Assembly (NCBI RefSeq): GCF_004661485.1
Contig: NZ_PQVH01000008.1
Coordinates: forward strand, 1-64,000
DNA: 64,000 bases
Direction: 5' to 3'
Origin: Methylotenera oryzisoli
GTDB taxonomy: Bacteria; Pseudomonadota; Gammaproteobacteria; Burkholderiales; Methylophilaceae
How positions within the stretch are numbered: the stretch's first letter is position 1; each line of letters opens with the position of its first letter. The notes under the pieces were generated by a model. It saw only the letters and a program-made list of their open reading frames with translations. It made no database searches and was not told where the DNA came from. The translations under genes were made by a program, and so were the position numbers. Below are positions 3,929 to 34,819 of this stretch, one piece after another.

Positions 3929-3946
3929 CCTTAGTTTGACAAATAC

Positions 3947-3970
3947 AACCCTGCTTTTGCAGGGTTTTTT
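3947..3970 (+). terminator. Rho-independent terminator between sheath and tube genes
   Basis: Stem AACCCTGC / GCAGGGTT (8 bp), loop TTTT, followed by further T to 3970. It lies 18 bases after the sheath stop and 20 bases before the tube start. Confidence 0.85.
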
Positions 3971-3990
3971 ACTTTTGAGAGGTAATAAAA

Positions 3991-9137: not shown

Positions 9138-9146
9138 GAATTCCAG

Positions 9147-10623: not shown

Positions 10624-11201
10624 CTGCTGAAAGTTATTTACAGCAACTGCAGGCTTTATTGCCGCAAGGTCCAGCATGGCCAAGAGAAGAGGGTGCGTTA
10701 AACACTAAGTTGCTGGATGCGTGGTCTGCAGAACTAGCTAGAGTAGATGCTCGTATCGAGGCGCTAATTAATGAAGCTGACCCTCGCGTAACGTCTGAGT
10801 TACTTGCAGACTGGGAGGCGCTTGCTGGTCTGCCTGATCCATGTGTGACTGTAGATCAAACAGTAGATCAGCGGCGATTGGCGCTGGTTAGTAAGCTCAC
10901 TAACCTGGGTGGCCAAAGCCGCCAATACTTCATCAACTTGGCTACAAGCATGGGTTATGCAGATGCCACGATAGATGAATACAAGCCAATGAACTGCAAT
11001 GACAATTGCAATGATGCCCTTTATTCAGATAACGACCGCTTTTATTGGACGATGAACTTGCCATCAGATGGCGGTATTTTTATTGCCAATTGCCAAAGCC
11101 CCTGCGATTCCCCGCTGCAGTCATGGGGCGACGAAGCGATTGAGTGCCGTATTAATAAATATAAACCTGCCCATACAACCGTAATTTTTGCTTACCCTTA
11201 G
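10614..11201 (+). CDS. Tail protein gp48 family (YmfQ, DUF2313)
   Basis: 195 residues. ESYLQQLQALLPQGPAWPREEGALNTKLLDAWSAELARVDAR and LLADWEALAGLPDPCV are diagnostic for the YmfQ/Mu gp48 family that links baseplate and tail fibres. The C-terminal half carries seven cysteines (CNDNCND, NCQSPCDSP, ECR), common in this family and possibly structural. It is the last of the Mu-type baseplate genes before the fibre. Confidence 0.88.
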   Translation: MALTAESYLQQLQALLPQGPAWPREEGALNTKLLDAWSAELARVDARIEALINEADPRVTSELLADWEALAGLPDPCVTVDQTVDQRRLALVSKLTNLGGQSRQYFINLATSMGYADATIDEYKPMNCNDNCNDALYSDNDRFYWTMNLPSDGGIFIANCQSPCDSPLQSWGDEAIECRINKYKPAHTTVIFAYP

Positions 11202-11214
11202 GAGATGATGAAAA

Positions 11215-12210
11215 ATGAAAAGAATTGATACATCAACCCGTGCTGTAGATTTGTTCGGCGCGGGTAAAGATGGTTATAAGGATGGCAATAAAGCACTAGG
11301 CATTGTGCCAACAGATATGAATGCTTCATCTTTAAACTCAATCCAAGAAGAGATTGCTTCCGTGATTGAAGGCACCGGCGTTGCACTCAACCCTGCTGAT
11401 AATGCGCAGTTAAGCACGGCAATTAAAGCCTTGATTGCTAATTACGGCAACGACTACATTGCCAAATTCACCACCACCGCCAATATCAACCTTAACGGGT
11501 TGGCTGCACAAGCTGGTGGTGATTGGTCAGGCGCACTTACGGCTGGTGACGTCATCCTAGTGAAAGACCAAACCACAGGTGCGCAGAATGGTTGGTATGT
11601 TGCCGCAGCTGGTGCTTGGTCACGTGTTACCTGGGCAGACGTCTCTGCTGAAATTAAGCCTGCAGTATTAACAATGGTGAGCGGTGGAGCAACGTTAGCA
11701 GACAGCATTTGGATATTAACCACGGATGCGCCAATTACATTAGGTACAACTTCACTAGTGTTTGCGCGTAAGGATGGTGGTGCAGTAACAGCGGCTAGTG
11801 ACCCAACCTTCGTTAATAACAGCTCATCACCGGCTAGTACAAGCTGGGTACGCGGTGCGATGGCAGCCATTGCTACAGCAGCAGGTTTTGCTGTTTCATT
11901 AACCGCTAATGGATATATTAAATTTCCTAGTTGGCTGGGTGGGTGGATTGTTCAATGGGCTACTGGTACTAACGATGCGGCAAATAATACAGAGGTCTCT
12001 CAAACAATTACATGGCCTTTAGCGTTCCCAACTGCAGCCTTGTTTTCAAGCGTAAGCACTCAAACAGCCACTCTATCAGGTTCTTGTGATTTATTTTATC
12101 AGTCAGCACCACCAACACTTACCAACATTCAAGTGCAACGTAATCAAACAGGGAGCGCGTCATCAAACTCAGTTTTAACTGCACCCAAAGCATGGGCAGT
12201 AGGATATTAG
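11215..12210 (+). CDS. Phage tail fibre protein
   Basis: 331 residues, short for a fibre. ATG 11215 has a GGAG ribosome site at 11201-11204; the ATG at 11205 is out of frame. The N-terminus (KRIDTSTRAVDLFGAGKDGYKDGN, then MNASSLNSIQEEIASVIEGTG) is the usual baseplate-attaching domain of Mu/P2-type fibres. The middle (GDVILVKDQTTGAQNGWYVAA) resembles repeated fibre shaft modules. The last about 85 residues (GYIKFPSWLGGWIVQWATG, then ITWPLAFPTAALF) look like a gp53-type C-terminal receptor-binding tip. This tip likely decides host range. Confidence 0.88.
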   Translation: MKRIDTSTRAVDLFGAGKDGYKDGNKALGIVPTDMNASSLNSIQEEIASVIEGTGVALNPADNAQLSTAIKALIANYGNDYIAKFTTTANINLNGLAAQAGGDWSGALTAGDVILVKDQTTGAQNGWYVAAAGAWSRVTWADVSAEIKPAVLTMVSGGATLADSIWILTTDAPITLGTTSLVFARKDGGAVTAASDPTFVNNSSSPASTSWVRGAMAAIATAAGFAVSLTANGYIKFPSWLGGWIVQWATGTNDAANNTEVSQTITWPLAFPTAALFSSVSTQTATLSGSCDLFYQSAPPTLTNIQVQRNQTGSASSNSVLTAPKAWAVGY

Positions 12211-12218
12211 GAGGAATC

Positions 12219-12680
12219 ATGTTTTATTCAGCAACAACTAAAGGCGTTTATTCAGAAAAACATCATGGGGAAAACATTCCAGCCGATGCTTTGCCTATTC
12301 CAGATTTGCTCTATCAGTCATATTTGAATGCTGAAATTTCACGCTTTGATGTGATTGATGGGGTTGTGGTTGCTTATAAAAGAGCAGAGCCAACGCCTGA
12401 AGAATTTACCGCACAAGAATTTGAGTCAGTACGCGCTAAATTGCAATCAGAGATTGATGCCAAAGCCAAGGCACTAGGCTTCAGCGGCGGCAACGCACTG
12501 ATGCTTTACGCTGGTTTCTCAAATGGCTTCCAAACGCTAGCTCAGGCGTTTGCACAATGGGAGGCGGATGTTTGGATTCAGGCCGGGGCCTATAAAGATG
12601 AGGTGTTGGCTGGCACCAAGCCGATGCTAACACCTGATGAGGCAGTCGCCATGATGCCAGAGTTGGTACTGCCGGCATGA
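12219..12680 (+). CDS. Tail fibre assembly / fibre-associated protein
   Basis: 153 residues. ATG 12219 follows a strong AGGAGG at 12209-12214, which overlaps the fibre stop codon; an upstream in-frame codon at 12192 lies inside the fibre gene and is rejected. N-terminal text FYSATTKGVYSEKHHGENIPADA is common in fibre chaperones. The C-terminal part (AKALGFSGGNALMLYAGFSNGFQTLAQAFAQWEADVW) resembles a variable effector module. Placement directly after the fibre gene supports a chaperone role. It overlaps the next gene by 4 bases. Confidence 0.7.
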   Translation: MFYSATTKGVYSEKHHGENIPADALPIPDLLYQSYLNAEISRFDVIDGVVVAYKRAEPTPEEFTAQEFESVRAKLQSEIDAKAKALGFSGGNALMLYAGFSNGFQTLAQAFAQWEADVWIQAGAYKDEVLAGTKPMLTPDEAVAMMPELVLPA

Positions 12681-12919
12681 TATTAATCTACCTAAAAAAC
12701 AACGCCATTGCCTTTGATCAGCAAGTCAATGCGTTGTTGGGTGGTTCGCCAGATGAAACGCTATCCAGCCGCGCTTACCGGGTAAGTAGGAATGGCAGCT
12801 GGTGGCGCTGGCAGATTTGCATGGTGGTGATTAATAGCTTGGCTTTTAACCGTAACCACTGTTACGAGTCTTATTTAAGTGAACTTAACCGCAGGCAGCG
12901 CCGCGCGAATTTTGGGTGA
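12677..12919 (+). CDS. Conserved small phage protein, function unknown
   Basis: 80 residues. The segment AFDQQVNALLGGSPDETLSSRAYR with a later NHCYESYLSELNRRQ is a pattern repeatedly seen in small late-region proteins of proteobacterial phages (FDQ, NxLLGG, DETLS, HCxxSYxSE). There is no signal peptide or membrane segment. It overlaps the fibre-associated gene by 4 bases, so it is expressed with the late genes. No function is known to me. Confidence 0.65.
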   Translation: MILIYLKNNAIAFDQQVNALLGGSPDETLSSRAYRVSRNGSWWRWQICMVVINSLAFNRNHCYESYLSELNRRQRRANFG

Positions 12920-12925
12920 ATTGAG

Positions 12926-13465
12926 ATGAAACTAATCATTATTTTAACTGGCCTCATCAGCTTTTTAATTAAGTTGGTGCTAGACCTTCCGTTGATGTTG
13001 CTAGGCTTGCTAGTGATCGCAATCGCTTTGCCATTCAGAAAAAACAATCACCTACCTGCATGGGCTGAGTGGTGCTGGGGTAATCGTGATCACGGCAATG
13101 ATGGTGAATCATTCTGGGCTAAGCGTACCATCGGCTGGCCATACTTCATACGATGCTGGTGGTGGTTGGCAGTGCGTAACCCTACGTTTAATTGGTCAAA
13201 GTATGTGCTTGGCCTCAAGGTGACGCAGTTGGCCGTGAGCATTGGTAATACCACTGTTGATGAAGATGAAGGCGCAACCGGCTGGCACTACTCCATTGGC
13301 GATGCGTTTGAGTTCAGGTTCATCGGCTGGCCATATACCGTTTTTGGTAAACACTTTTGCGTAAAACTAAGATTTGGCTGGAAGATTGAAGGCAAGGATA
13401 TTGGAGAGATGGCACAGTTTTGCTTTGTGCCTAATCCGGTGTGTGCTTTTACACCAAAAACATAA
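12926..13465 (+). CDS. Membrane-anchored phage protein, DUF7338-like, function unknown
   Basis: 179 residues. The first about 40 residues hold one or two hydrophobic segments (IIILTGLISFLIKLVLDLPLMLLGLLVIAIALPF). The soluble part has LPAWAEWCWGNRDHGNDGE and WWLAVRNPTFNWSKYVLG, a Trp-rich pattern I recognise from phage-encoded proteins placed near lysis genes. The C-terminus has GWPYTVFGKHFCVKLRFGWK. The family name is given with moderate confidence. A terminator follows. Confidence 0.6.
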   Translation: MKLIIILTGLISFLIKLVLDLPLMLLGLLVIAIALPFRKNNHLPAWAEWCWGNRDHGNDGESFWAKRTIGWPYFIRCWWWLAVRNPTFNWSKYVLGLKVTQLAVSIGNTTVDEDEGATGWHYSIGDAFEFRFIGWPYTVFGKHFCVKLRFGWKIEGKDIGEMAQFCFVPNPVCAFTPKT

Positions 13466-13495
13466 TAAAAATTCAATTTGTACTAGTTGATAAAT

Positions 13496-13517
13496 GCCGC
13501 CTTGAGCGGTTTTTTTT
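13496..13517 (+). terminator. Rho-independent terminator before the lysis cassette
   Basis: A short 4-bp GC stem CCGC / GCGG (plus a G-T pair) with loop CTTGA is followed by eight T. It separates the fibre-side accessory genes from the lysis cassette. Confidence 0.7.
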
Positions 13518-13547
13518 ACGTCCAAAAATAATAAAAAGGGGTGGTAA

Positions 13548-13916
13548 ATGCCAGATCCAATAACACATGCTGCTAGTCCGTTAGCTATTGCAACATTATC
13601 TACGGCGGCTAGTTTTCTATTTGATCTGCCTCTTGGGGTAGTGATTACTGCAGTCGGTGGCGCTTACTGGGCCGTATATAGAAATAAGTCACTGAAGGTG
13701 GGGCGGTCAATTCTATTGATTATTGGCGCTACGCTTATTGCCGTGACCTTAGTGCATGGTGTTACATGGATGTTCGATACTTTACTCAACATGAAAGACA
13801 TCCCTCAGCGTCCGGTAGCTTTCTTGCTAGGTTTCGCTGTGATAGATAAGCCTTTTAGGGATTCATTAATCGCCTGGGCTAAATCTAAATTTGACTTCCT
13901 GCAGGTGCAAAAATGA
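13548..13916 (+). CDS. Putative phage holin (three membrane segments)
   Basis: 122 residues with about three hydrophobic stretches: around residues 13-40 (LAIATLSTAASFLFDL and LGVVITAVGGAYWAVY), 53-75 (ILLIIGATLIAVTLVHGV) and 88-100 (VAFLLGFAVI). The C-terminus is short and charged. Small size, several membrane segments and position two genes before the endolysin are what is expected of a holin. AAGGGG precedes ATG 13548. The stop overlaps the next gene (ATGA). Family not recognised from sequence. Confidence 0.6.
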   Translation: MPDPITHAASPLAIATLSTAASFLFDLPLGVVITAVGGAYWAVYRNKSLKVGRSILLIIGATLIAVTLVHGVTWMFDTLLNMKDIPQRPVAFLLGFAVIDKPFRDSLIAWAKSKFDFLQVQK

Positions 13917-14224
13917 GTGCAATTTTAAGTATTTTAATTGGAATATATATCGTGGTGGACGCAGCATATCTGGCTGCAATTGCAGACAGTGAAACTAGGC
14001 ATTGCATGATTGGGAAACACGCTGGCGCAGTTATGAGCGGGTTGTACATGATTGTTGGTTTTCACAATGACTTTACCATTTTGTTTGGAGTGACCATCGC
14101 ACTATTCATGTGGCCAGATACTTACTTTAGGTTGCTAGATTACCTGCAGGCAAAAAATCACCGAGTGTACCTCTTTGTTATTGGGCTTTTTAAACATAGA
14201 TCACGTAGAAAGAGCGGGTCGTAA
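13913..14224 (+). CDS. Small phage membrane protein, holin or antiholin candidate
   Basis: 103 residues with three hydrophobic segments (ILSILIGIYIVVDAAYLAAI, AGAVMSGLYMIVGF, FTILFGVTIALFMWP) and a basic C-terminal tail (KHRSRRKSGS). It is translationally coupled on both sides: ATGA overlap with the holin candidate before it and TAATG overlap with the amidase after it. Two adjacent multi-pass proteins in front of the endolysin could be a holin/antiholin pair, but nothing in the sequence says which is which. Confidence 0.55.
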   Translation: MSAILSILIGIYIVVDAAYLAAIADSETRHCMIGKHAGAVMSGLYMIVGFHNDFTILFGVTIALFMWPDTYFRLLDYLQAKNHRVYLFVIGLFKHRSRRKSGS

Positions 14225-14760
14225 TGAAAAGAACTATTAATGCAATTGTGATCCATTGTGCTGCCACCCCCAATGGTAAGGCTTTTGAGGCGCTAGATAT
14301 TGACCGGATGCACAAGCTGAGAGGATTTAAACGTGATAGCCAGGCTGTGCGGAACTTCAACCCAGAACTAAAGAGTATTGGGTACCACTTTGTTGTTGGT
14401 GTAGACGGCAAGACTCAAACGGGCAGGGGCCTTGAAGAGATTGGTGCGCATGTGCAGGGCAGTAATGCCAAATCAATTGGAATATGCATGATTGGAACGG
14501 ACCAATATAGCCAGGCGCAATGGTTGGGATTGCGCGAATGCTTAGTTAATCTGTCAAGCAAGATATTAGGCCGCACTATTTTAACGCCTGCATCGATGCT
14601 GCAGTCATTAAATGATGCTGGTATCAGCATTAAAGGCCACCGAGATTATTCGCCTGACTTAAATGGCAATGGCGTGATTGAGCGGAATGAGTGGATTAAA
14701 ACCTGCCCAGGTTTTGATGTTGCTGCATGGATTAAAGGCGGCATGGTTCCTTTGAAATAA
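14224..14760 (+). CDS. Phage endolysin, N-acetylmuramoyl-L-alanine amidase
   Basis: 178 residues of the Amidase_2 / T7 lysozyme fold, cleaving the amide bond between MurNAc and L-Ala in peptidoglycan. Zinc ligands can be placed by pattern at H11 (IVIHCAAT), H139 (KGHRDYSPD) and C161 (IKTCPGFD), with Y54 (SIGYHFVV) and K159 near the catalytic positions of T7 lysozyme. There is no signal peptide, so it needs a holin to cross the inner membrane. The insert NGNGVIERNEW before the last ligand is typical of this subgroup. Confidence 0.92.
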   Translation: MKRTINAIVIHCAATPNGKAFEALDIDRMHKLRGFKRDSQAVRNFNPELKSIGYHFVVGVDGKTQTGRGLEEIGAHVQGSNAKSIGICMIGTDQYSQAQWLGLRECLVNLSSKILGRTILTPASMLQSLNDAGISIKGHRDYSPDLNGNGVIERNEWIKTCPGFDVAAWIKGGMVPLK

Positions 14761-14774
14761 GTTGGAGATAAATA

Positions 14775-15284
14775 ATGATAGGTTTTCTTTCTGGATTAAG
14801 TCTGCAGACAAAAGCATTAATTGCTATTGGTTTGTTTCTAAGTGGACTTGCCTCTGGCTGGGTAGTGCATGGATGGAAAACAGACTCCAGTGCAGCCAAA
14901 AGTATCAACAATCAAATTAAAACGGCCACAGCGCTTCAAAATGAATCTAAGCCAATTATTAACAAGAAAATAAATGATCTACAAAAGGCCGAGATTGTTT
15001 ATAGAACGATTAAGGAGAAAATCTATGAAAAGAATGATACTGACATCTGCTTTGATGCTGAGTCTCTCAGCTTGTGGAACAGTGCCATCGCAGGTGCCGA
15101 TAGTAATCGACCAGAGCCTGCTAGAGAGGCCGCAGAAAATGAAGCCATTGTCGCCAGTGTTGAAGAAGTCCTTGTCAACGCCTCAGACAACTTTGAAACC
15201 TGCAACAAAAACATTATCAAGCACAACGCTTTAATTGATAAAGTTGAATCCCTTGATGGTAAAATGTGCGCCTGCAGCAGATGA
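14775..15284 (+). CDS. Rz-like inner membrane spanin (i-spanin)
   Basis: 169 residues. One N-terminal membrane anchor (about residues 13-33, LIAIGLFLSGLASGWVVHGW) is followed by a helical periplasmic domain (KSINNQIKTATALQNE and INDLQKAEIVYRTIKEKIYEKN) typical of Rz proteins. Another frame inside this gene encodes a small lipoprotein, the matching Rz1. Together they fuse inner and outer membranes at the end of lysis. GGAG precedes ATG 14775. The protein is longer than the usual 150 residues and ends CACSR. Confidence 0.85.
   Translation: MIGFLSGLSLQTKALIAIGLFLSGLASGWVVHGWKTDSSAAKSINNQIKTATALQNESKPIINKKINDLQKAEIVYRTIKEKIYEKNDTDICFDAESLSLWNSAIAGADSNRPEPAREAAENEAIVASVEEVLVNASDNFETCNKNIIKHNALIDKVESLDGKMCACSR
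15025..15234 (+). CDS. Rz1-like outer membrane spanin, nested in Rz
   Basis: 69 residues encoded in another frame wholly inside the Rz gene. ATG 15025 has a near-perfect ribosome site TAAGGAG (15011-15017). The N-terminus MKRMILTSALMLSLSAC is a lipoprotein signal with lipobox LSAC and lipidated Cys17; the mature part is short and Pro/Ser/Thr-rich, as in known Rz1 proteins (about 40-60 residues). A longer frame start upstream (14974) lacks the signal peptide at the N-terminus and is rejected. Complete nesting is the lambda arrangement. Confidence 0.85.
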   Translation: MKRMILTSALMLSLSACGTVPSQVPIVIDQSLLERPQKMKPLSPVLKKSLSTPQTTLKPATKTLSSTTL

Positions 15285-15644: not shown

Positions 15645-17279
15645 GTGACCACTAGAAAACCTATAAAAATGACATCAACAGTATTTCAAAGATTATCTCT
15701 AGCACTATTTTCATTACTAACTGTTTTTATTGTGGTGACTTTTAAGCAATACGGTATTAGTAATGATGAGCAGGTGCAGCACGTTTATGGGCAGCTGCTA
15801 CTTAATTTTTACAGTAGCGGGTTTGTGGATCACGCAGCGTTTACTTACAAGAACCTCTATTTGTATGGTGGTTTATTTGACCTAATTGCCGCCATGTTAG
15901 AGAAGCTTTTACCGCTTTGGGTGTGGGATATACGTCATTTACTTTCAGCATTGTTTGGTTTAGCAGGCATTGTGGCAGTGCATAAAATTACCAACGAGCT
16001 AGCAGGTGCACGGGCAGCTTTTATTGCAGCGTTTTTACTTACCATTACTGGTGCATGGACCGGTGCAATGTTTACGCACACTAAAGACGTGTCTTTTGCT
16101 GCTTGTATGGTTTGGGCTTTATATTACACATTGCTTATTGCTAAACAGTTGCCTCGCATCCCATTGGTCTTGAGTTTAAAGCTTGGCGTGGCAGTCGGCC
16201 TAGCGTTAGGTTTGAGAATTGGCGGTGCCTTTGCCGTTATTTATTTGCTATTAATGGTACTGGTCGCCGGGTGCTTAACTGCCGAAGGTTGCAAACTGAA
16301 AATAACGTTTTATTGGCAAAGTTTTATTGGTCTATTGCCGGCAGGTGCCATGGCTTTAGGTTTAATGGCTATTTTCTGGCCGTGGTCGGTGATGGGCTCT
16401 GATCATATTCTAATTGCTGTTAAGTCTTTTTCACACTTTTCTTTCGATATGAATACTATTGTGAATGGTCAGTTTGTTAGCATCGGGGAGGTGCCACGTA
16501 CTTACTTATTTCAGTATTTGGGTATCCGCTTGCCTGAGATTTTTCTGCTTGGCTTAATAAGCTTAGTTATCGTGCTGGGGCTGAGATTAAAGCAAGCATC
16601 GTTTTTGAAGCTAAATTTGTTGCCAGAGATTACGGTGAGTATCGCTTTACTTACCCCTTTAGTCTTTGTGTTGTTGGATCGTCCTGCGCTTTACAATGGC
16701 GTACGGCATTTTACTTTTGTGATTCCTACATTAGCGATTGTTGCCGGGGTTGGTTTATCCAAAATGTTTGATGTTTTGGTAGGCTATAAAAAATGGCGCT
16801 TAGGCTTTGTTGCAGTATGTACGCTACTGAGTGTGAACACGATATGTACGCTTTACGCGCTGCATCCATATCAATATCTTTACTACAACCATTTTGCAGG
16901 CGCTGATTTTAAACATGCCCAACATAATTGGGAGGGGGATTATTGGTCTAGCAGTTTGATTGACGCGACTAAAATGTTAGAACAGTATGTAGATGCAGAG
17001 GCTGTGAGTTTGCCAAAGAAAAGTGACGCTGTATATTCAGTCGCGGTTTGCGCAGAAGCTTTTCAAGGGCAGGCGTATTTAGACAAGCGGTTTAGTATCA
17101 CTGAAAATTGGGTGACTGCTGATTTCTTTATTTCTAGTACTAATATGAATTGCGATAAAGTGTTGCAAGGTGAGGTTATTGGTGTGGTAGAACGTTTAGG
17201 CGCACCACTTGCGGTCGTGAAAGATCGTAGAAGATTAATAGGCGATGCACGGATACCACGTGCCGCACCACGGGATTAG
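15645..17279 (+). CDS. GT39/ArnT-like membrane glycosyltransferase (GT-C fold)
   Basis: 544 residues from GTG 15645 (an ATG at 15669 is also possible; neither has a clear ribosome site). About ten membrane segments run to residue 400. The first periplasmic loop carries GISNDEQVQHVYG, with the acidic pair DE expected for GT-C catalysis, and THTKDVSFAA comes later. The C-terminal soluble part has HPYQYLYYNHFAG and WEGDYWSSS, a pattern seen in uncharacterised GT39 relatives. Enzymes of this type move a sugar from a polyprenyl phosphate carrier to lipid A, O-antigen or protein on the periplasmic side. It leads a four-gene operon with a GT2, a GtrA and a deacetylase, which together supply such a carrier. 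Acceptor and sugar are unknown. Confidence 0.8.
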   Translation: MTTRKPIKMTSTVFQRLSLALFSLLTVFIVVTFKQYGISNDEQVQHVYGQLLLNFYSSGFVDHAAFTYKNLYLYGGLFDLIAAMLEKLLPLWVWDIRHLLSALFGLAGIVAVHKITNELAGARAAFIAAFLLTITGAWTGAMFTHTKDVSFAACMVWALYYTLLIAKQLPRIPLVLSLKLGVAVGLALGLRIGGAFAVIYLLLMVLVAGCLTAEGCKLKITFYWQSFIGLLPAGAMALGLMAIFWPWSVMGSDHILIAVKSFSHFSFDMNTIVNGQFVSIGEVPRTYLFQYLGIRLPEIFLLGLISLVIVLGLRLKQASFLKLNLLPEITVSIALLTPLVFVLLDRPALYNGVRHFTFVIPTLAIVAGVGLSKMFDVLVGYKKWRLGFVAVCTLLSVNTICTLYALHPYQYLYYNHFAGADFKHAQHNWEGDYWSSSLIDATKMLEQYVDAEAVSLPKKSDAVYSVAVCAEAFQGQAYLDKRFSITENWVTADFFISSTNMNCDKVLQGEVIGVVERLGAPLAVVKDRRRLIGDARIPRAAPRD

Positions 17280-17283
17280 GGTC

Positions 17284-18261
17284 ATGAATAAAAACATTTT
17301 TCCACGAGTAGGCACTGAAGCGCATATTAGCGTGATTGTTCCGGCCTTTAATGAAGAGGCCGCAATTGTTAGCACTATCCATACCATTGTGGATCGTCTA
17401 AAGCAGCTCAGTGAAAACTGGGAAATCATTGTGATTGATGATGGAAGCCGTGACCAAACAGCTAATATAGTACGTAATTTACCTGAAAGTTTACGAACAA
17501 CCCTAGTACGTTTTTCGCGTAATTTTGGTAAAGAGTATGCCATCACAGCCGGTTTGGAATATGCGACGGGCAATGTGGTGATATGCATGGATGCCGATGG
17601 ACAGCACTCATCTGAGTTGTTAGCGCAAATGTTAGAAAAATGGCGTGAAGGATATGACATGGTCTATGCATACAGGCAAGACCGTGATGTAGAGTCGCGA
17701 TTTAAGCGTTGGGGCTCACGTATTTTTTACCGAGCAATTAGTCTAGGTGGTCAGATTCATATTCCACGCGATGCTGGTGATTTCCGCTTAATGGATAGGC
17801 AAGTGGTCAATGCTCTGCTTTCTTTGCCTGAGCGTAATCGCTTTATGAAGGGTATTTATGCATGGGTTGGCTACCATTCTATTGGTATTCCATTTATACC
17901 ATTGCCTCGCTCACATGGTGAAAGTGCATTCTCGAAGTTAAAACTGATTCAGCTGGCTTGGACTGGGGTCACCAGTTTCTCTGTGATGCCATTGCGATTG
18001 GCAAGTGCAGTAGGGGCTTTACTTGCTTTGCTGTCTTTCACCTATGGGATGTACGTAGTGGTTGATCATATGTTTTTTGATGAGTCAGTGCCAGGTTGGC
18101 CCACTATTATTGCCAGCATGATGTTTTTTGCCGGAGTGCAATTGTTGTTTATTGGTATATTAGGCGAGTACCTATCACGTATTTATGACGAGGTTAAAGG
18201 GCGGCCACCTTATATTGTGGCAGAAGTGCTTAAGCCTAAAGTGATCACGCAGCACCAATGA
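17284..18261 (+). CDS. Polyprenyl-phosphate glycosyltransferase, GT2 (GtrB/ArnC-like)
   Basis: 325 residues from ATG 17284, 4 bases after the previous stop; an in-frame ATG at 17245 lies inside that gene. The GT-A fold is plain: ISVIVPAFNEEAAIV, EIIVIDDGSRD, FSRNFGKEYAITAGL and ICMDADGQH (DXD-like metal site). The last 90 residues have two membrane segments (ASAVGALLALLSFTYGMYVVV and ASMMFFAGVQLLFIGILGEYLSR), the GtrB/ArnC/DPM type that loads a sugar onto undecaprenyl phosphate at the cytoplasmic face. It overlaps the GtrA gene by 4 bases. Confidence 0.92.
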   Translation: MNKNIFPRVGTEAHISVIVPAFNEEAAIVSTIHTIVDRLKQLSENWEIIVIDDGSRDQTANIVRNLPESLRTTLVRFSRNFGKEYAITAGLEYATGNVVICMDADGQHSSELLAQMLEKWREGYDMVYAYRQDRDVESRFKRWGSRIFYRAISLGGQIHIPRDAGDFRLMDRQVVNALLSLPERNRFMKGIYAWVGYHSIGIPFIPLPRSHGESAFSKLKLIQLAWTGVTSFSVMPLRLASAVGALLALLSFTYGMYVVVDHMFFDESVPGWPTIIASMMFFAGVQLLFIGILGEYLSRIYDEVKGRPPYIVAEVLKPKVITQHQ

Positions 18262-18647
18262 CACAAACCCATCGACATTCCATTTCCTGGTTTGCAGTAA
18301 TTGGTGCACTGGCTGCTGGTGTGCATTATGTTGTTGCCGTCGGCTTAGAGCTTAGCCACTTACTTACAGCTATTCATGCAAACACAATAGGTTTTTTGTT
18401 TGCATTCCCTGTGAGCTATTTTGGGCATCGTAAATTAAGTTTTTCTGGGCAGACATCTACACACTTGCATGCATTTCCGCGTTTTTTTGCCGTTGCAGTA
18501 TCCGGTTTCTTAGCGAATCAATTTTTAGTGATTAATGCCATTTACTTTACGAACATTCCATTTTGGTTGGTGCTGGGGGTGGTGATGGTGATTGTTGCTG
18601 TTTCAACTTATTTTTTGAGCCGTTACTGGGCATTTAAAGGCAAATAG
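18258..18647 (+). CDS. GtrA-family flippase
   Basis: 129 residues with four membrane segments. FAVIGALAAGVHYVVAVGLEL at the N-terminus, then NTIGFLFAFPVSYFGHRKLSF, and the end VSTYFLSRYWAFKG are the GtrA family marks. GtrA proteins are thought to flip polyprenyl-phosphate-linked sugars across the inner membrane. It overlaps the GT2 gene by an ATGA and precedes the deacetylase by 2 bases. Confidence 0.92.
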   Translation: MTQTHRHSISWFAVIGALAAGVHYVVAVGLELSHLLTAIHANTIGFLFAFPVSYFGHRKLSFSGQTSTHLHAFPRFFAVAVSGFLANQFLVINAIYFTNIPFWLVLGVVMVIVAVSTYFLSRYWAFKGK

Positions 18648-18649
18648 TC

Positions 18650-19435
18650 ATGAAGCTTATTATCTGTGCTGACGATTTTGCACAAAGCCCAAGTATTGAC
18701 GCTGCTATTGTGCGCCTTATCGAAAATAACAGACTGACCGCAGCGTCCTGTATGGTCAATAGCCCACACTGGGCATCATCTGCCAAATTGCTCACTTCAG
18801 ATATTAGAGACAAAGCGCATATTGGCTTGCATCTTGATTTTACGTTATTTGGATATCGCTACCCACACGGTATATTGACCTTGCTGAGCCTGTTACGCTG
18901 CCTGCCAAAAGCTTCAATTCAAAACAGTATTGAACATCAGTTGAATCAGTTTGAAGTGGCGTTAGGCACGCAGCCTGATTATGTTGATGGGCATCAGCAT
19001 GTGCATCAGCTTCCACAAATTCGTCAGGTTTTGTTGGCGGTGTTAAAACAGCGTTATCACCATCAATTACCTTGGATAAGAATTGCGAAGCCCAATGATG
19101 AAAGCGGCATTAAAGGCCGCATCATTAAAATGCTTGGTGCCAGTGCGCTGGAGCGGGAAGCTAAACAGCTGGGGTTTAAGTGCAGTAATGTGCTATTAGG
19201 CGTTTATAATTTTAGCGGAGATGTGCAAGATTATAAAAAGCGCTTAATTGATTGGGCAACACAAGCTAAGCATAGTGTTGGTACATCGGTGTTGATGTGT
19301 CATCCAGCCGTGGCGGCAGCAGAAGGGTACATCAATGATCCTATTTACCCTGCCAGAGTGAATGAGTTTAGCGTACTGAACAGTGATGCTTTCGCCACAA
19401 TATTTAATGACGTTAAGATTGTGCGAGAGCCATAG
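18650..19435 (+). CDS. YdjC/ChbG-family carbohydrate deacetylase
   Basis: 261 residues. Metal and catalytic motifs are visible: ICADDFAQS at residues 4-12 (Asp pair), HIGLHLDFT around 64, DGHQHVHQ around 121, and the late MCHPA. The family hydrolyses N-acetyl groups from sugars. In Francisella the homologue NaxD deacetylates undecaprenyl-phosphate-GalNAc before galactosamine is put on lipid A, and Bordetella has a similar enzyme for glucosamine; the neighbours here fit that scheme exactly. Alternative: deacetylation of a free oligosaccharide such as chitobiose (ChbG). The operon context favours the lipid-linked substrate. Confidence 0.85.
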   Translation: MKLIICADDFAQSPSIDAAIVRLIENNRLTAASCMVNSPHWASSAKLLTSDIRDKAHIGLHLDFTLFGYRYPHGILTLLSLLRCLPKASIQNSIEHQLNQFEVALGTQPDYVDGHQHVHQLPQIRQVLLAVLKQRYHHQLPWIRIAKPNDESGIKGRIIKMLGASALEREAKQLGFKCSNVLLGVYNFSGDVQDYKKRLIDWATQAKHSVGTSVLMCHPAVAAAEGYINDPIYPARVNEFSVLNSDAFATIFNDVKIVREP

Positions 19436-19442
19436 TTTGTAC

Positions 19443-19498
19443 GAGTGCTGCTATTGCCTAGTAACTACTCTTAGTAGCTACTGATTGGTGCAGCACTC
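19443..19498. repeat. Long nested inverted repeat between convergent genes
   Basis: Outer arms GAGTGCTGC (19443-19451) and GCAGCACTC (19490-19498) are perfect. Inside, TAGTAACTACT and AGTAGCTACTG pair over 11 positions with one mismatch and a CTT loop. No T-run follows on either side. Such a hairpin between convergent ends may stop or stabilise transcripts. Confidence 0.6.
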
Positions 19499-19544
19499 AC
19501 ATTAACTAGTGGTTTATGGTTTGTTGGTATTGAATGCTATAGGT

Positions 19545-20012
19545 TTAAGCCGGTTTGGGTAATTTTTTGTTTGATTGTGCGCTTTTTTGCATGACGCAGG
19601 TTTCCTTGCCATAAGTGCCAACATTAGAATCTACTTCATAGTAATGATTGGTGTAAGCATACTTACCAGCCGGGTTTTTGCTGATATTCGCAATGCCGGT
19701 ACTGAATTCTGCAGAGCTGACCTCAGACATACTTAAATTAAAGGCAATCTTGTTTGCGTTAGCGACTGCTTTGCCTTTGTATGTGAAAGAGTTTTCTGTT
19801 TCGAGTGCAAAATCATAAATGCCGATGCTGCCTCTGCTCGCTGCGCGATTTAATGTGAGTTTTGCTAGCACTTGATAGTCACCAACTTTACTGTTGTTGC
19901 CTTTGCATGAATAAGTGCCACTGTAGTTTACGCCAACAAAATTAGGTTTTGCTTCCGCTATCTGAATGGTGCTGATGGTGATTAATAAAGAGGTAAGAAT
20001 CGCACGTTTCAT
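19545..20012 (-). CDS. Small secreted protein, paralogue of the one at 34294
   Basis: 155 residues. Signal peptide MKRAILTSLLITISTIQIAEA, so periplasmic or extracellular. The mature part (YSGTYSCKGN, then GDYQVLAKLTL, YDFALETENSFTYKGKAVANANKIAF, FSTGIANISKNPAG, NHYYEVD, YGKETCVMQ) contains two cysteines that probably form a disulfide. The same motif series recurs in the protein encoded at 34294-34710. The last about 12 residues are Lys/Pro-rich. Mostly beta, lipocalin-like by eye. A tandem 10-bp repeat (GGATATTTTA twice, 20016-20035) sits just upstream of the start. Function unknown; it stands alone between two operons. Confidence 0.75.
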   Translation of the reverse strand: MKRAILTSLLITISTIQIAEAKPNFVGVNYSGTYSCKGNNSKVGDYQVLAKLTLNRAASRGSIGIYDFALETENSFTYKGKAVANANKIAFNLSMSEVSSAEFSTGIANISKNPAGKYAYTNHYYEVDSNVGTYGKETCVMQKSAQSNKKLPKPA

Positions 20013-20187
20013 GATGGATATTTTAGGATATTTTAAAAGCGTCTATTGTAGCGTGAGGCTGGTATGTGATGAAACTTACTTTTTATATTTTTTATGCCTT
20101 AATGTTTTGTTTTGTTTATGTGCTTGCATTATGATGGGCGCCTAAATCAATTTTTAATCGATTATTTGACTTAATACATCAAAATTT

Positions 20188-21771
20188 ATGCAAATTTCCC
20201 CAGTTAAGGCATTATCGACCAAGTTACTTTGGCGTTTCTGTATCTTCAATATTGCTTTGCTATTAGGGTTGATATTCTGGCTTTGGCAAGCAAGTCAACC
20301 CGTTAACTTAATACAGCCTCAATTGCCGAACGATGGCAAGTTGCAGTGCGTTTCTTACTCCCCTTATTACCACCCAGGACAAACACCACTTAACCCTAAC
20401 AGTTTTATCCAGCCAGCACAGATTGATCATGACCTTGCTGCACTTTCCAAGCGGTTTAATTGCGTACGAATTTATTCGGTCTCTCAAGGCCTTAGTTATG
20501 TGCCGGAAGCAGCCTCTAAATTAGGGATTCAGGTATATCTGGGGGCTTGGATAGGCTGGGTAGCTGCGAACAACGATAAAGAGTTGGATTTGGCCATAAG
20601 TGTTGCGAATAAATATCCGAAGACTGTGAAGGCACTGATTGTCGGTAATGAGGTTTTATTACGTGGTGAGCAATCTGAGGCCGCGATGCAGGCGTATTTG
20701 GAAAAAGCACAACGCTCAACCTTAGTACCAGTGACTTATGCTGATGTTTGGGAGTTCTGGCGAAAACATCCAAAACTAGAGGCTAATGTGGATTTTGTGA
20801 CGGTGCATATACTTCCGTATTGGGAAGATGATCCGCAGGCAATCACTGAAGCAACCCAGCATGTAGTGAATGTGATGAGTTTACTTGCAGAGACCTTCAA
20901 AAAGCCTATTTTAATTGGTGAAACTGGCTGGCCATCCGTAGGTAGGCAGCGTCAGGCTTCTGAGCCCAGCTTAATTAATCAAGCGAGTTATTTACGTGGA
21001 TTTTTACAACTCGCACATGATCATGCTTGGCAATACAACTTGATTGAAGCAATTGATCAGCCATGGAAGCGAGATCTTGAAGGTACCGTTGGTGGTTATT
21101 GGGGTATTTTCGATACGGAGCTAACGCCTAAGTTTGCCTTTACTGGTGATATACAGCCACGTCATGATATAAAGGCTATCGGGCTGTCTGGCGCATTGGG
21201 CTTTGCCTTATTTCTAGGCTTGGCGTTTTTATTTAAAGCGCGTCAAGTTTATATGAAGTTAGGTTTATGTGCGGCCGGCATCGTGTTTGGCATCTCAGTC
21301 TGGCTACAGACTCAATACTTGATCAGTGCTTGTCGAAACATCACTGAATGGCTAACCTTGAGCGGGTTAGCTTTTGTTGGCTGGCTACTGGTGGTTGGTT
21401 TGATATGGCGCATATGCCAACCCAGTAAGCATCATGCGCTAGTTTTAAAAACAGGCGTATTTATACTTTCAGTTGCGGCAATCAGCGCCACAGTTTTATT
21501 GATTGTCGATGGAAGGTATCGTGATTTCCCCATCAGCTTATATGTCTTGCCGATTTTACTGTTATCATTTTCCTCTGTATTTTTAGAGGTCGATGTGAAA
21601 CCAAAGCGCTGGCTGGGCTATGTGCTTAGCTCAGTTCTAATGGCTGCGGCACTGTATTGTGTTTATTTAGAAATTGAAAATATATCTACTTATTATTGGC
21701 TTGGTCTGTGTGGCTTACTTATAGCTGCATTATGGCCAAAATCTCAAGCTTCAATTCGTTCATCACTTTGA
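20188..21771 (+). CDS. Membrane-bound glycoside hydrolase family 17 protein
   Basis: 527 residues. An N-terminal membrane anchor (about 15-34) is followed by a GH17 (beta-1,3-glucanase / glucanosyltransferase) domain at about 50-310. The acid/base E155 lies in VGNEVLLRG and the nucleophile E245 in IGETGWPS; both are present. AIDQPWKRDLEGTVGGYWG ends the domain. Then come about six membrane segments (325-520). This is an unusual arrangement, with a periplasmic hydrolase at the front and a membrane bundle behind. It precedes a GH17-GT2 glucan synthase by 22 bases. It may trim, branch or cyclise the glucan made by that enzyme. Confidence 0.85.
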   Translation: MQISPVKALSTKLLWRFCIFNIALLLGLIFWLWQASQPVNLIQPQLPNDGKLQCVSYSPYYHPGQTPLNPNSFIQPAQIDHDLAALSKRFNCVRIYSVSQGLSYVPEAASKLGIQVYLGAWIGWVAANNDKELDLAISVANKYPKTVKALIVGNEVLLRGEQSEAAMQAYLEKAQRSTLVPVTYADVWEFWRKHPKLEANVDFVTVHILPYWEDDPQAITEATQHVVNVMSLLAETFKKPILIGETGWPSVGRQRQASEPSLINQASYLRGFLQLAHDHAWQYNLIEAIDQPWKRDLEGTVGGYWGIFDTELTPKFAFTGDIQPRHDIKAIGLSGALGFALFLGLAFLFKARQVYMKLGLCAAGIVFGISVWLQTQYLISACRNITEWLTLSGLAFVGWLLVVGLIWRICQPSKHHALVLKTGVFILSVAAISATVLLIVDGRYRDFPISLYVLPILLLSFSSVFLEVDVKPKRWLGYVLSSVLMAAALYCVYLEIENISTYYWLGLCGLLIAALWPKSQASIRSSL

Positions 21772-21793
21772 TAGAAATTCTCAGCGTAACCTT

Positions 21794-24364
21794 ATGATTA
21801 ACAAAACTAAACGCTATTTAATTCCACTTTTGTTTGCAGTGCTAGTGGCTGCGATCCACTTTAGTCTTTGGTATATTTCCAATCGCGCGCTACCTTTAAT
21901 TAATGCGCCAGAAATTGTAAATGGCTTTGCCTTTAGTGGATTTCAGGAAAATCAGAGCCCATTGCGGAAAGAGTATCCGAGTACGGCTGAGTTGGAAAAA
22001 GATTTACGCTTACTCAAACCTTTGACTCATCGTGTTCGTATTTATGGTGCGCTGGAGAATAGTGAAGTTACTGCGCTTGCTTCTAGTTTAGGGTTCCATG
22101 TAACAGCTGGTGCTTGGTTGGGTAGTGATGCCGCTGCAAACTATCGTGAAGTTGAGGCGCTGAAGGCCAAGATTAAAATCTATCCAAAAATTGAGCGTGC
22201 CATTGTGGGTAATGAGGTTTTACTTCGTAACGACCTAACGCCTGAGCAATTGATTGGTTACATAGAAGACGTTCGTAAAACCACGAAACTGCCAATTTCT
22301 ACCGCAGAGCCTTGGCATGTCTGGCTGAAAAACCCTGAACTGGTCAAGCACGTAGATTTTATTGCGGTGCACTTGTTGCCTTACCATGAAGGCGTACCGG
22401 TAGAGGATGCCGTAGATTACTCACTGAAGCGTTATCAAGAGTTAATGGATGTGTATCCAAGAAAAAAAATCGTGATTACAGAGATTGGTTGGCCTAGTAA
22501 TGGGCCAACATTAGGTGCAGCAGTAGCCTCTAAAGTGAACCAAGCGCTTTTTGTCCGGGAATTTTTGGCTAAAACAGCACATAAAAACTACGATTATTAC
22601 TTAATGGAAGCATTTGACCAGCCTTGGAAAAAAGAGCTGGAAGGTTGGGCTGGCGCCTACTGGGGCATGTTTGATGCCGAGCGCAATGAGAAATACTCAT
22701 TGCACGGCGCAGTCCCTAAAGATGATCGCTGGAAAGCAAAAGCACTTTGGGCAAGTCTGTTAGGTTTGTTGCCAATATTCTTTATTGCTTATCGCTTCAG
22801 GCATTGGGGTTTACGCGCCCGTAGTTCGATGGCGGTGTTACTGCAAGCTTGTATTACCACTTTAGTGGTTGCTTGGAATTTACCTGGAGATTATTACTAT
22901 ACGATGAAGGATTTTGTCGTGTTGATTGCATTACTGATCGGCATGGGGTTAACGTCTGCAGTATTGATGATTTATGCGGTTGAGTTTAGTGAAGTGATGT
23001 TCAAGAAGGGCTGGAATCGTGCATTTAAGCGTGCAAAGCCACTGCCTGCGGATGAAGAGCTGTTTGTTTCTGTACATTTGGCATGCTACAACGAGCCACC
23101 AGAAATGGTGATCACCACCATTGAAAGCTTGGCTAAACTTAACTACACCAACTTTGAAGTGATTGTGGTTGATAACAACACTAAAGATGAAGCGAAATGG
23201 AAGCCGCTTGAAGCCTATATGGCAAAAATGCCGGAGAATTTTAAATTCTTCCATCTGCCGCAGTGGCCTGGCTTTAAGGCCGGTGCTTTAAACTTTGCAC
23301 TAGAGCAAACAAACCCTAATGCGCAGGTAGTGGGGGTAGTGGATGCCGATTATGAAGTAACCCCTGATTGGCTGTCTGATTTAGTACCACATTTCCTTGA
23401 GCAAAAAGTGGCTGTGGTGCAAGCGCCTCAGGCCCATAGAGACTGGGAGCATAGTTTCTTCCGCAGTATGGGTAACTGGGAGTTTGAGGGTTTCTTCCGC
23501 ATTGGTATGCACCACAGGCACGAACGTAATGCCTTGATTCAGCATGGTACGATGACCTTAGTGAGATACCAAGCGTTAATGACTAGCGGAAAATGGTCTG
23601 AATGGTGCATCTGCGAAGATACCGAGTTAGGCTTACGTTTACTGGAAGACGGCTATGAACTACGCTACATTGATGATACGTTTGGCCGTGGCTTAACACC
23701 TGCAGACTTTAAAGCACTCAAGTCACAACGCTTCCGTTGGGCATTTGGTGCGATGCAAATTTTGAAACATCACATACCTAAGTTGTTAGGGGATTCAACC
23801 TTGACCTTTGGGCAGCGTTATCACTTTTTAACGGGTTGGTTCGGCTGGTTAGGTGAGGCTTTGCAGCTAGGCTTTACCATAGGCTCTATCGCATGGTCTG
23901 TGGCTATGCTGTTATTCCCAGAAGAGGCGAGTTTGCCGGTTTCTCTGATGATTACCACCATTATTTGCTTCTTGGTGATTAAAGCGATTATGGGCCCGAT
24001 GTTGTATCTAAAAACCATGACGTGTCGCTGGATTGATATCTTTGGTGCATCTGTCGCCAGTCTTGGGCTATCACATGCTATTGCCAGAGGCATTATCAGC
24101 GGCATCATTAAAAAAGATGGCGTGTTTAAAGTGACTGCAAAAGGCAAGGGGCTCAAAAAATCCAACTGGTATGATTGGATTGCACCAATTCAAGAAGAGT
24201 TATTTCTACTGAGTGCGTTAACGCTGAGCAGTATCGCGATGCTAGCTACCCGCGGAGTTGGTAATAGCGATGCTCAAATCTGGGTGGCTATGTTGAGCTT
24301 GCAATCATTACCTTACATAAGTGCGGTTGCCTGCCAAATTATTAGTAAAAGAGAAAACGGTTAA
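21794..24364 (+). CDS. Beta-glucan synthase: GH17 domain fused to processive GT2 (NdvB-like)
   Basis: 856 residues. Residues 11-29 form a membrane anchor, 40-310 a GH17 domain with E141 (VGNEVLLR) and E230 (VITEIGWPS). Two or three membrane segments at about 315-400 lead into a GT2 domain (420-660) with all processive-synthase marks: HLACYNEPPEM, VVDNNT, DAD at 517-519, ED at 608-609 and QRFRW at 645-649. Four to five membrane segments follow. Pseudomonas NdvB and the Bradyrhizobium cyclic beta-1,3/1,6-glucan system have related enzymes. Expected reaction: UDP-glucose polymerised and exported as beta-1,3-linked glucan, remodelled on the periplasmic side by the GH17 parts. Confidence 0.88.
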   Translation: MINKTKRYLIPLLFAVLVAAIHFSLWYISNRALPLINAPEIVNGFAFSGFQENQSPLRKEYPSTAELEKDLRLLKPLTHRVRIYGALENSEVTALASSLGFHVTAGAWLGSDAAANYREVEALKAKIKIYPKIERAIVGNEVLLRNDLTPEQLIGYIEDVRKTTKLPISTAEPWHVWLKNPELVKHVDFIAVHLLPYHEGVPVEDAVDYSLKRYQELMDVYPRKKIVITEIGWPSNGPTLGAAVASKVNQALFVREFLAKTAHKNYDYYLMEAFDQPWKKELEGWAGAYWGMFDAERNEKYSLHGAVPKDDRWKAKALWASLLGLLPIFFIAYRFRHWGLRARSSMAVLLQACITTLVVAWNLPGDYYYTMKDFVVLIALLIGMGLTSAVLMIYAVEFSEVMFKKGWNRAFKRAKPLPADEELFVSVHLACYNEPPEMVITTIESLAKLNYTNFEVIVVDNNTKDEAKWKPLEAYMAKMPENFKFFHLPQWPGFKAGALNFALEQTNPNAQVVGVVDADYEVTPDWLSDLVPHFLEQKVAVVQAPQAHRDWEHSFFRSMGNWEFEGFFRIGMHHRHERNALIQHGTMTLVRYQALMTSGKWSEWCICEDTELGLRLLEDGYELRYIDDTFGRGLTPADFKALKSQRFRWAFGAMQILKHHIPKLLGDSTLTFGQRYHFLTGWFGWLGEALQLGFTIGSIAWSVAMLLFPEEASLPVSLMITTIICFLVIKAIMGPMLYLKTMTCRWIDIFGASVASLGLSHAIARGIISGIIKKDGVFKVTAKGKGLKKSNWYDWIAPIQEELFLLSALTLSSIAMLATRGVGNSDAQIWVAMLSLQSLPYISAVACQIISKRENG

Positions 24365-24373
24365 TATCATTTG

Positions 24374-25912
24374 ATGAACACGAATACACCAGAGCCGCAT
24401 AAAATGAATACGGATCATCGTGGCCGCCATGTTTTACGCGGTGCCATTAGGTTTGCAACCTATTTATGCGCATTCTTTTTAGTGGCCGTAGCTTATTGGG
24501 TGGCTGATAACTTTGGCGAGCCTTCACTAGAACAACTGTTCTATCATGCGCAGTTTGGCATGGGCGGTTTGATTGATACCGATGCCGCAATTATTAAGAG
24601 TTTCGTCATTTGGTGTATTGCGCTACCTATATTTATCGCATTGTTATTGGTGTTGATTGAGTATTCAATTGCGCTATTTCTCACGCATGGATCTTCACAC
24701 TGGTTAACCAAGCCTGCCAGGCTTGCCAATATTCATTTCATCAAGGTGTTTTATTGGTTTATTGGACACAGAGCCCCTTTATACGCATTAACCGTAGCAA
24801 CAGTGTATTTTGGAGTGCAGTTCTCCGTTACTGTTTTTCTACATAATCTATTTGGTAAAGATTATTTTTCGGCACACTATCTAAACCCGGCGGAGGTGCA
24901 AGTAGAAACCACAAAACCTAAGAACCTAGTGTTGATTTATGTAGAGAGTTTAGAAAATAGTTATCAACAACCTGAGCTGTTTGGTAAAAACTTGCTCAGC
25001 AGCCTAGATCGTTTAAAAGGTTTAAGTTTTACTGACTATAGAAAAGCGCCAGGTACATGGTGGACGATTGCCGGTATTACCGCAACGCAATGTGCCGTAC
25101 CGCTGAAAAGTGTTAGCTTATATGACGGTAATGACCAAGGTGAAAAAATTAAAAGCTTTTTGCCGAATGCGGTTTGCTTAGGCGATATTTTGCATGATGC
25201 CGGTTATCACAATGTTTATATGGGCGGTGATGCACTTGGCTTTGCAGGTAAGGGCATGTTTTTTCAAGATCATCACTATGATGAGGTGTATGGTCGTGAT
25301 GAGTTAAAAGGCAAGCTCACCGATGCGCAATTGAATTTCTGGGGTTTGTATGATGATGATCTATTTGCATCAGCCAAGACTAAGTTGATTGCGCTACATA
25401 AAAGTAAGCAGCCTTTTAATCTAACCGTGACCACTATTGACACGCATGGCCCAGACGGACATTTTTCTAAATACTGTAAGTCTGTAGGGACTAAAACGTT
25501 TGAAGGTATTGTAGAGTGCACCTCAAATCAGGTAGTTAGTTTTGTTAAATTCATTCAGAAAAGTGGCTACTTAAAAGATACTAATGTTGTCATTCTTGGT
25601 GACCATTTAGCGATGGAAAATCCAGTGAGTGAGAAGTTGGATTTGATTAAAGAGCGCCATATTTATAATCAGTTTATTTCAAATGATCACTTTGAAAAGA
25701 ACCGTAATCAGATATTGCCATTTGACATGTTTCCGACCATTTTAAACTTTATTGGTTTTAGCGTGCCAGGAGGGAAGTTAGGCTTAGGTTATACCGCTTT
25801 GTCTAAAGAGGCTGATTTGTCGTTGCTACTTAACTATGAGGAAATGAATGAAGACCTGCTTAATCAATCGGATATGTATCTAGACCTTTGGAGGGATGAA
25901 GCTAAGCTGTAG
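24374..25912 (+). CDS. Phosphoglycerol transferase, OpgB/MdoB-like
   Basis: 512 residues from ATG 24374 (the TTG one codon earlier is not needed). About four N-terminal membrane segments (25-160) precede an alkaline-phosphatase-superfamily domain. Signatures match E. coli OpgB: LIYVESLENSY (metal-binding Glu), then GTWWTIAGITATQC (catalytic Thr region), YMGGDALGFAGKG, DTHGPDGHFSKYC and ILGDHLAM. OpgB transfers phosphoglycerol from phosphatidylglycerol to periplasmic glucans. Position 10 bases after the glucan synthase supports the same role here, giving an anionic osmoregulated glucan. Alternative: a lipoteichoic-acid-synthase-like enzyme, unlikely in a Gram-negative. Confidence 0.88.
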   Translation: MNTNTPEPHKMNTDHRGRHVLRGAIRFATYLCAFFLVAVAYWVADNFGEPSLEQLFYHAQFGMGGLIDTDAAIIKSFVIWCIALPIFIALLLVLIEYSIALFLTHGSSHWLTKPARLANIHFIKVFYWFIGHRAPLYALTVATVYFGVQFSVTVFLHNLFGKDYFSAHYLNPAEVQVETTKPKNLVLIYVESLENSYQQPELFGKNLLSSLDRLKGLSFTDYRKAPGTWWTIAGITATQCAVPLKSVSLYDGNDQGEKIKSFLPNAVCLGDILHDAGYHNVYMGGDALGFAGKGMFFQDHHYDEVYGRDELKGKLTDAQLNFWGLYDDDLFASAKTKLIALHKSKQPFNLTVTTIDTHGPDGHFSKYCKSVGTKTFEGIVECTSNQVVSFVKFIQKSGYLKDTNVVILGDHLAMENPVSEKLDLIKERHIYNQFISNDHFEKNRNQILPFDMFPTILNFIGFSVPGGKLGLGYTALSKEADLSLLLNYEEMNEDLLNQSDMYLDLWRDEAKL

Positions 25913-26030: not shown

Positions 26031-26059
26031 AAAAACCAGCTGAATCTTAGCTGGTTTTT
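26031..26059. terminator. Bidirectional terminator between opgB-like gene and uup
   Basis: AAAAACCAGCT (26031-26041) pairs with AGCTGGTTTTT (26049-26059), loop GAATCTT. The A-run on one side and the T-run on the other let it act on both strands, serving the + strand glucan operon and the - strand uup gene. Confidence 0.85.
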
Positions 26060-26077
26060 TAGTTTGAGACTTTGTAA

Positions 26078-34293: not shown

Positions 34294-34710
34294 ATGAAAT
34301 ACTTTATTTACAGTCTATTCTTGTTAATGAGCTTTAACAGTGATGCGGAGCAAACTGTTGCGCCAGACTTTAGCGGTGTCTACAACTGTGTGGGAGATGA
34401 TACACACGAAGGAAAGTATACTGGCGTTGTTACCATGGCATTAAAACCATCACACAGTAAAGGTAATTACGCGAGCTATGACTTCAAGCTGGAGGTGCCG
34501 GGTTACGGCACCTATTTAGGACACGCTGCGGCAAATGGCTACCATGTTGCCATGCACTTTGCGCTGCAGGATCAAAGCACTAAAGACTACGGCACAGGGA
34601 TTGCCGAAATGAAAAAGAATGCCAGTGGTCAGTGGGGCTTTCATAAGTTTTACTTTGAACCAGAATTTAAAGGTGGCAATACTGGGGTTGAAGACTGCAC
34701 TATTCAATAA
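34294..34710 (+). CDS. Small secreted protein, paralogue of the one at 19545
   Basis: 138 residues. Signal peptide MKYFIYSLFLLMSFNSDA. The mature part reads FSGVYNCVGDD, GKYTGVVTMALK, YDFKLEVPGYGTYLGHAAANGYHVAM, YGTGIAEMKKNASGQ, KFYFEPE and VEDCTIQ. It shares a long string of positions with the protein encoded at 19545-20012: SG-Y-C-G, G-Y, YDF-LE, Y-G-A-AN, TGIA, KN-G, Y-E, E-C-Q. Two conserved cysteines could form a disulfide linking the ends. Probably periplasmic. The methyltransferase gene 13 bases upstream may share its transcript. Confidence 0.75.
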   Translation: MKYFIYSLFLLMSFNSDAEQTVAPDFSGVYNCVGDDTHEGKYTGVVTMALKPSHSKGNYASYDFKLEVPGYGTYLGHAAANGYHVAMHFALQDQSTKDYGTGIAEMKKNASGQWGFHKFYFEPEFKGGNTGVEDCTIQ

Positions 34711-34819
34711 GCTTATAAGCAATAAGTTATCAGGCGATAACGACTAAACTTGAGCTTGATGGTTTCAAGTGATACGTATGAGCTAAACTTAATTTTTAGC
34801 GTCTAACTCTACATGCGTT

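Follow-up and report, generated by a model that had tools for sequence, protein, structure and literature searches.

Three tandem genes lie on the forward strand at 20188–25912 of the window, the 64,000-nucleotide stretch of Methylotenera oryzisoli DNA analysed here: gene 1 (ndvC, 20188–21771, a 527-aa open reading frame), gene 2 (ndvB, 21794–24364, 856 aa) and gene 3 (opgB-like, 24374–25912, 512–513 aa, with a TTG at 24371 as an alternative start). Intergenic gaps of 22 and 6–9 bases separate them, and the opgB-type gene and ndvCB form one apparent operon. Upstream of the trio lies a divergent gene for a secreted 155-aa barrel protein (19545–20012, reverse strand); a convergent ABC-F gene follows the trio downstream. 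A stem–loop at 26034–26060, with an 8-bp stem and T runs on both sides, separates opgB from the ABC-F gene and reads as a probable bidirectional terminator.

Gene 1 consists of a first transmembrane (TM) helix, a periplasmic GH17 domain (residues about 48–320) and a seven-TM bundle, and its AlphaFold2 model shows the same TM helix, GH17 domain and seven TM helices with a pLDDT of 93.4. The GH17 domain matches 4wtp, the solved structure of a Rhizomucor GH17 β-1,3-glucanosyltransferase, both by sequence (phmmer E 2.6e-20) and by structure comparison (Z 32.3, rmsd 1.9, 254 residues), so that the closest relative found by structure search is a transglycosylating GH17; Foldseek and VIA matches to the model span the GH17 part only. 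The catalytic glutamates E155 and E245 are invariant among 44 aligned homologues. Within the membrane bundle, D441, R443 and F447 are invariant and E495 and N498 nearly so, and by helix count these residues would occupy loops on the GH17 side. A DGRYRDF motif at residues 441–447 of the bundle is nearly invariant, is likewise placed on the GH17 side by helix count, and may be part of the glucan site.

Gene 2 comprises a TM segment and a GH17 domain (Pfam PF00332, 41 bits against a cut-off of 28.2) fused to a GT2 glucan synthase (85.7 bits) with DAD, ED and QxxRW motifs. Its GNEV and TEIGW motifs, which contain the GH17 catalytic glutamates, line up with GH17 structures. In one relative (G029, locus L197, 6204–8756), an in-frame stop interrupts ndvB, which may therefore be a decaying copy.

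A search of named genomes returned 80 Bradyrhizobium, Rhodopseudomonas and Afipia loci, in 56 of which the gene-1 homologue adjoins a divergent gene-2 homologue. These proteins are about 36% identical to gene 1 (mostly 510–590 aa) and about 35% identical to gene 2 (mostly 880–965 aa), and both window proteins align over their full length with the named Bradyrhizobium copies. In a maximum-likelihood tree built from the N-terminal 400 residues, NdvC and NdvB, window proteins included, are reciprocally monophyletic with 100/100 support. Judged by these comparisons, gene 1 is NdvC and gene 2 is NdvB, together the Bradyrhizobium-type pair. The Bradyrhizobium pathway combines a GH17–GT2 NdvB with a separate membrane GH17, NdvC (PMC10514313), and represents the Group 4 periplasmic glucans; NdvC is required for β-1,6 linkages, which are lost in ndvC mutants of B. 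japonicum (PMC10514313, PMC4881576). The window thus shares orthologous GH17–GT2 NdvB and GH17–membrane NdvC proteins with this cyclic β-(1,3)/(1,6)-glucan system but differs in orientation: here ndvCB is co-directional with opgB and the barrel gene is near, whereas in Bradyrhizobium ndvC and ndvB are divergent. Within about 8 kb of ndvC, the named Bradyrhizobium loci contain no GT2, GtrA, YdjC, OpgB or barrel homologue, and the substituent on record for the Bradyrhizobium glucan, as PMC12423599 cites it from Rolin 1992, is phosphocholine. In whole-genome searches, 54 of the 100 genomes of the family survey contain a GH17 match, and about half the family carries a gene-1 homologue that resembles gene 1 in length and architecture; in the phylum survey, 62 of the 397 genomes have a GH17 match.

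Gene 3 belongs to the sulfatase-fold OpgB family (NF003000, 214.8 bits). Because this score lies under the NCBIfam equivalog cut-off of 574, which describes the long enterobacterial form, we call the protein OpgB-like rather than OpgB proper. Over 346 residues of the catalytic domain it shares 36% identity with OpgB of E. coli K-12, and it represents a short form, without the long C-terminal part of the enterobacterial enzyme. All 20 aligned OpgB sequences, E. coli OpgB among them, have E191, T231, D410 and H411 in common; by analogy with LtaS and OpgB, T231 would be the nucleophile and the other three metal ligands. While the catalytic residues of E. coli OpgB/MdoB are thus kept, the C-terminal domain is missing and the partner glucan would be made by NdvB/C, not by OpgGH. 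OpgG (PF04349) has no match at E 1 in the M. oryzisoli genome, which rules out OpgGH as a back-up pathway, and is missing from 98 of the 100 family genomes (present in 2). A parallel in product is the Pseudomonas NdvB 'Orphan' glucan synthase, likewise a GH17–GT2 protein: the P. aeruginosa NdvB product is a glycerol-phosphorylated β-(1,3)-glucan (Sadovskaya 2010, as cited in PMC10237404). There, however, ndvB stands apart from its distant (22–27% identical) MdoB homologues rather than in an operon with them, whereas here the opgB-like gene lies beside ndvCB; one Desulfofustis ndvB also adjoins an MdoB/OpgB homologue (PMC10237404).

A preliminary description of this DNA had proposed three adjacent genes for a GH17 protein with its own membrane bundle, a GH17–GT2 fusion and an OpgB-like transferase, on a route distinct from OpgGH, and the gene order, domain content and absence of OpgG bear this out. 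It had also set the locus apart from NdvB alone on the strength of two GH17 domains; this overlooked NdvC. With gene 1 as NdvC and gene 2 as NdvB, the two GH17 domains are the known Bradyrhizobium layout, and the full-length alignments and the tree rule them out as a novelty.

We propose, with a probability of about 0.7, that the locus encodes an NdvB/NdvC periplasmic glucan system of the osmoregulated type with its own phosphoglycerol transferase. The reactions, linkages, cyclisation and phosphoglycerol group in the following scheme are drawn from the protein families, and we infer them by analogy. The GT2 domain of NdvB would polymerise β-1,3-glucan from UDP-glucose and move the chain through the membrane, and its GH17 domain would cut and rejoin the chain, leading to elongation or cyclisation. 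NdvC, as a membrane-held periplasmic GH17 transglycosylase, would introduce β-1,6 branches or links. GH17 enzymes of the NdvB/C group vary in product, elongating in Pseudomonas and branching in Bradyrhizobium, so linkage and ring closure are not readable from sequence. Gene 3 probably puts phosphoglycerol on the glucan: by analogy with OpgB, it would transfer sn-glycerol-1-phosphate from phosphatidylglycerol, making the glucan anionic. A phosphoglycerol-decorated β-glucan is therefore the best reading of the product by family analogy, and the likely product is a periplasmic β-1,3(1,6)-glucan with phosphoglycerol, possibly also bearing an aminosugar delivered by undecaprenyl phosphate.

The three-gene pathway of the preliminary description proves too small. 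The conserved cluster extends upstream of the trio, beyond the interval then described, across 15645–20012, and its five genes are tied to ndvCB as tightly as opgB is, or tighter. On the forward strand these begin with a GT-C membrane glycosyltransferase (15645–17279), PMT_2-like under the Pfam cut-off, with a D41-E42 pair that is invariant and follows its first hydrophobic segment. It is followed by a GT2 of the GtrB/ArnC/DPM type (17245–18261), a predicted undecaprenyl-phosphate glycosyltransferase whose C-terminal part bears two hydrophobic segments, by a GtrA-family putative flippase of undecaprenyl-phosphate sugars (18258–18647; PF04138, 60 bits), whose place in the order is conserved, and by a YdjC/NaxD-type carbohydrate deacetylase (18650–19435; PF04794, 168 bits), in which the conserved D8, D9, H61, H115, H117 and H119 form a probable metal site. 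The order GT-C, GT2, GtrA, YdjC, barrel (divergent), ndvC, ndvB recurs in genera g1, g20, g2, g3, g4, g10, g16 and others; the gene-order comparison did not recover the GtrA reading frame in g17. The genome location of the cluster differs among its members, so its conservation is not the simple synteny of one chromosome region. A contractile-tail prophage on the forward strand (2435–15284; sheath, DNA circularisation protein, baseplate J, tail fibre and an amidase-like gene) stops just before a tRNA-Arg(CCT) at 15405, adjoining the glycosylation block.

The GtrB-type GT2, GtrA and GT-C proteins sit together in one block, as in three-component periplasmic glycosylation (compare PMC11127046), but here a YdjC deacetylase is added and the tie is to a glucan synthase, not to O antigen or teichoic acid. 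The block probably makes, flips and transfers a further sugar, which may be an aminosugar, with undecaprenyl phosphate as its carrier. Its GT2, YdjC deacetylase and GT-C equally recall the NaxD/FlmK-type lipid A aminosugar pathway, and the block could be such a pathway, of the Francisella FlmK/NaxD or the ArnCDT type, that simply adjoins the glucan genes, leaving ndvC-ndvB-opgB as the only glucan enzymes. For lipid A, the YdjC-superfamily enzyme NaxD removes the acetyl group from undecaprenyl-phosphate GalNAc (PMC11279074), the GT2 of the block also matches ArnC (183 bits), and the OPG decorations named in the surveyed literature include no sugar delivered by undecaprenyl phosphate. The genomic association, however, is with NdvB/C. 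YdjC occurs in 41 of the 100 family genomes and never without NdvB/C (41/41), lying within 3 kb of it in 31 (p 5.5e-17, uncorrected for phylogeny), while NdvB/C is also present in family genomes without YdjC. Across the phylum, 20 of the 28 genomes with a GT-C homologue (among 397) carry NdvB/C (p 5e-12, phylogeny ignored), as do 11 of 14 genera (p 3e-8, or 8e-7 without the organism's own family; phylogeny ignored). This association is also seen among Bradyrhizobium relatives, and an alphaproteobacterium-like genome with NdvB/C (G190) has a YdjC-GT2-GT-C block. Because a lipid A pathway is not expected to depend on a glucan synthase, these ties count against the lipid A explanation, which we consider a serious candidate at somewhat less than even odds. 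The dependence of the sugar block on NdvB/C instead suggests, from linkage alone, that the glucan is the acceptor of the second sugar.

Two Bradyrhizobium-like genomes (G273 and G284) also have a second, more distant GT-C about 7–12 kb from ndvB (L252, 8188–9882; L251, 7660–9351), beside a gene of weak GT2 similarity. Hopanoid glycosylation, considered for the YdjC/GT block from its resemblance to HpnK, is disfavoured, as the M. oryzisoli genome has no squalene-hopene cyclase; the enzyme is found in 3 of 60 family genomes.

In 50 family genomes the divergent barrel gene is found no more than 3 kb from ndvB/C, and it keeps its place next to ndvB in genomes from which ndvC and the sugar block are gone or have moved (G022, G038, G050 and G061). 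The model of its secreted product is an eight-stranded barrel of the calycin/streptavidin type (pLDDT 85.5; fold search Z 12–15) with two invariant cysteines, C36 and C139. Sequence searches of Pfam and the PDB returned nothing useful, and the fold does not reveal a ligand. The window contains a second, shorter homologue (34303–34722, forward strand) near tRNA-Lys, and family genomes without NdvB/C also hold a single unlinked copy. Taken at its widest, the whole of 15645–25912 would be one pathway, in which NdvB/C makes the backbone, the block adds a sugar from undecaprenyl phosphate (probably deacetylated to an aminosugar), OpgB adds phosphoglycerol and the barrel protein binds or chaperones the product; we offer this extended reading tentatively and hold it to be less likely than not in full.

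The cluster could also produce an exported or capsular β-1,3-glucan or a biofilm matrix, not a periplasmic osmoregulated glucan. P. aeruginosa ndvB has a role in biofilm antibiotic tolerance (PMC10237404), and gene 2 is cellulose-synthase-like across its GT2 and membrane part. Against this, the cluster lacks an outer-membrane exporter and a PilZ domain (none was matched in a domain search of gene 2), a GH17 fused to or beside the synthase favours short or cyclic products, and E. coli OpgB works on periplasmic glucans. We therefore judge export improbable and retain the periplasmic glucan as the product.

The distribution of opgB bears on the phosphoglycerol step. With a threshold of over 600 bits, an OpgB orthologue is present in 20 of the 100 family genomes, all 20 with NdvB/C (hypergeometric p 6e-7, phylogeny ignored), including about ten in which the genes are unlinked; as 34 of the 54 NdvB/C genomes have no opgB, it is optional. 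Two genera, g1 and g22, together include at least eight genomes with opgB next to ndvB. The order ndvC-ndvB-opgB is kept in four genomes of the organism's own genus (G000, G060, G069 and G078), G040 has collinear coordinates equal to those of the trio, and in G096 the trio is divided between two contig ends, one with ndvC and the other with ndvB-opgB. In g22 the opgB-ndvB arrangement is tandem in G038 and convergent in G022 and G050, and two genomes (G038 and G061, the latter 76% complete) have ndvB and opgB but no ndvC. The ndvB-opgB-ABC-F neighbourhood common to the two genera favours old inheritance with losses and moves over a mobile cassette. That gene 3 acts on another envelope acceptor or recycles phosphoglycerol, with no glucan decoration, would agree with its being optional (20/54 NdvB/C genomes) and often unlinked and with the several acceptors among sulfatase-fold transferases, but it is the least probable alternative given that the nearest family is OpgB with its full catalytic residue set, that every sampled genome with the orthologue also has NdvB/C (20/20), and that the gene repeatedly adjoins ndvB. 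Two genomes of family f27 encode a larger sulfatase-fold protein, 27–28% identical to gene 3, about 4 kb from ndvC (L207, 2485–4587; L209, 14062–16053).

As envelope molecules, periplasmic glucans are general; the question here is which enzymes decorate those of the NdvB type. In Pseudomonas, the candidates for decoration are the distant MdoB homologues and the one Desulfofustis neighbour, nothing more (PMC10237404). The system at the core of the M. oryzisoli locus is known and its combination new; the more interesting part of the locus is the upstream cluster. To our knowledge, there is no earlier case of a three-component system acting on a periplasmic glucan. If the doubly decorated reading is true, the glucan would be zwitterionic. 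From the wider conserved cluster we predict a so far unreported way of decorating a periplasmic glucan, by way of undecaprenyl phosphate.
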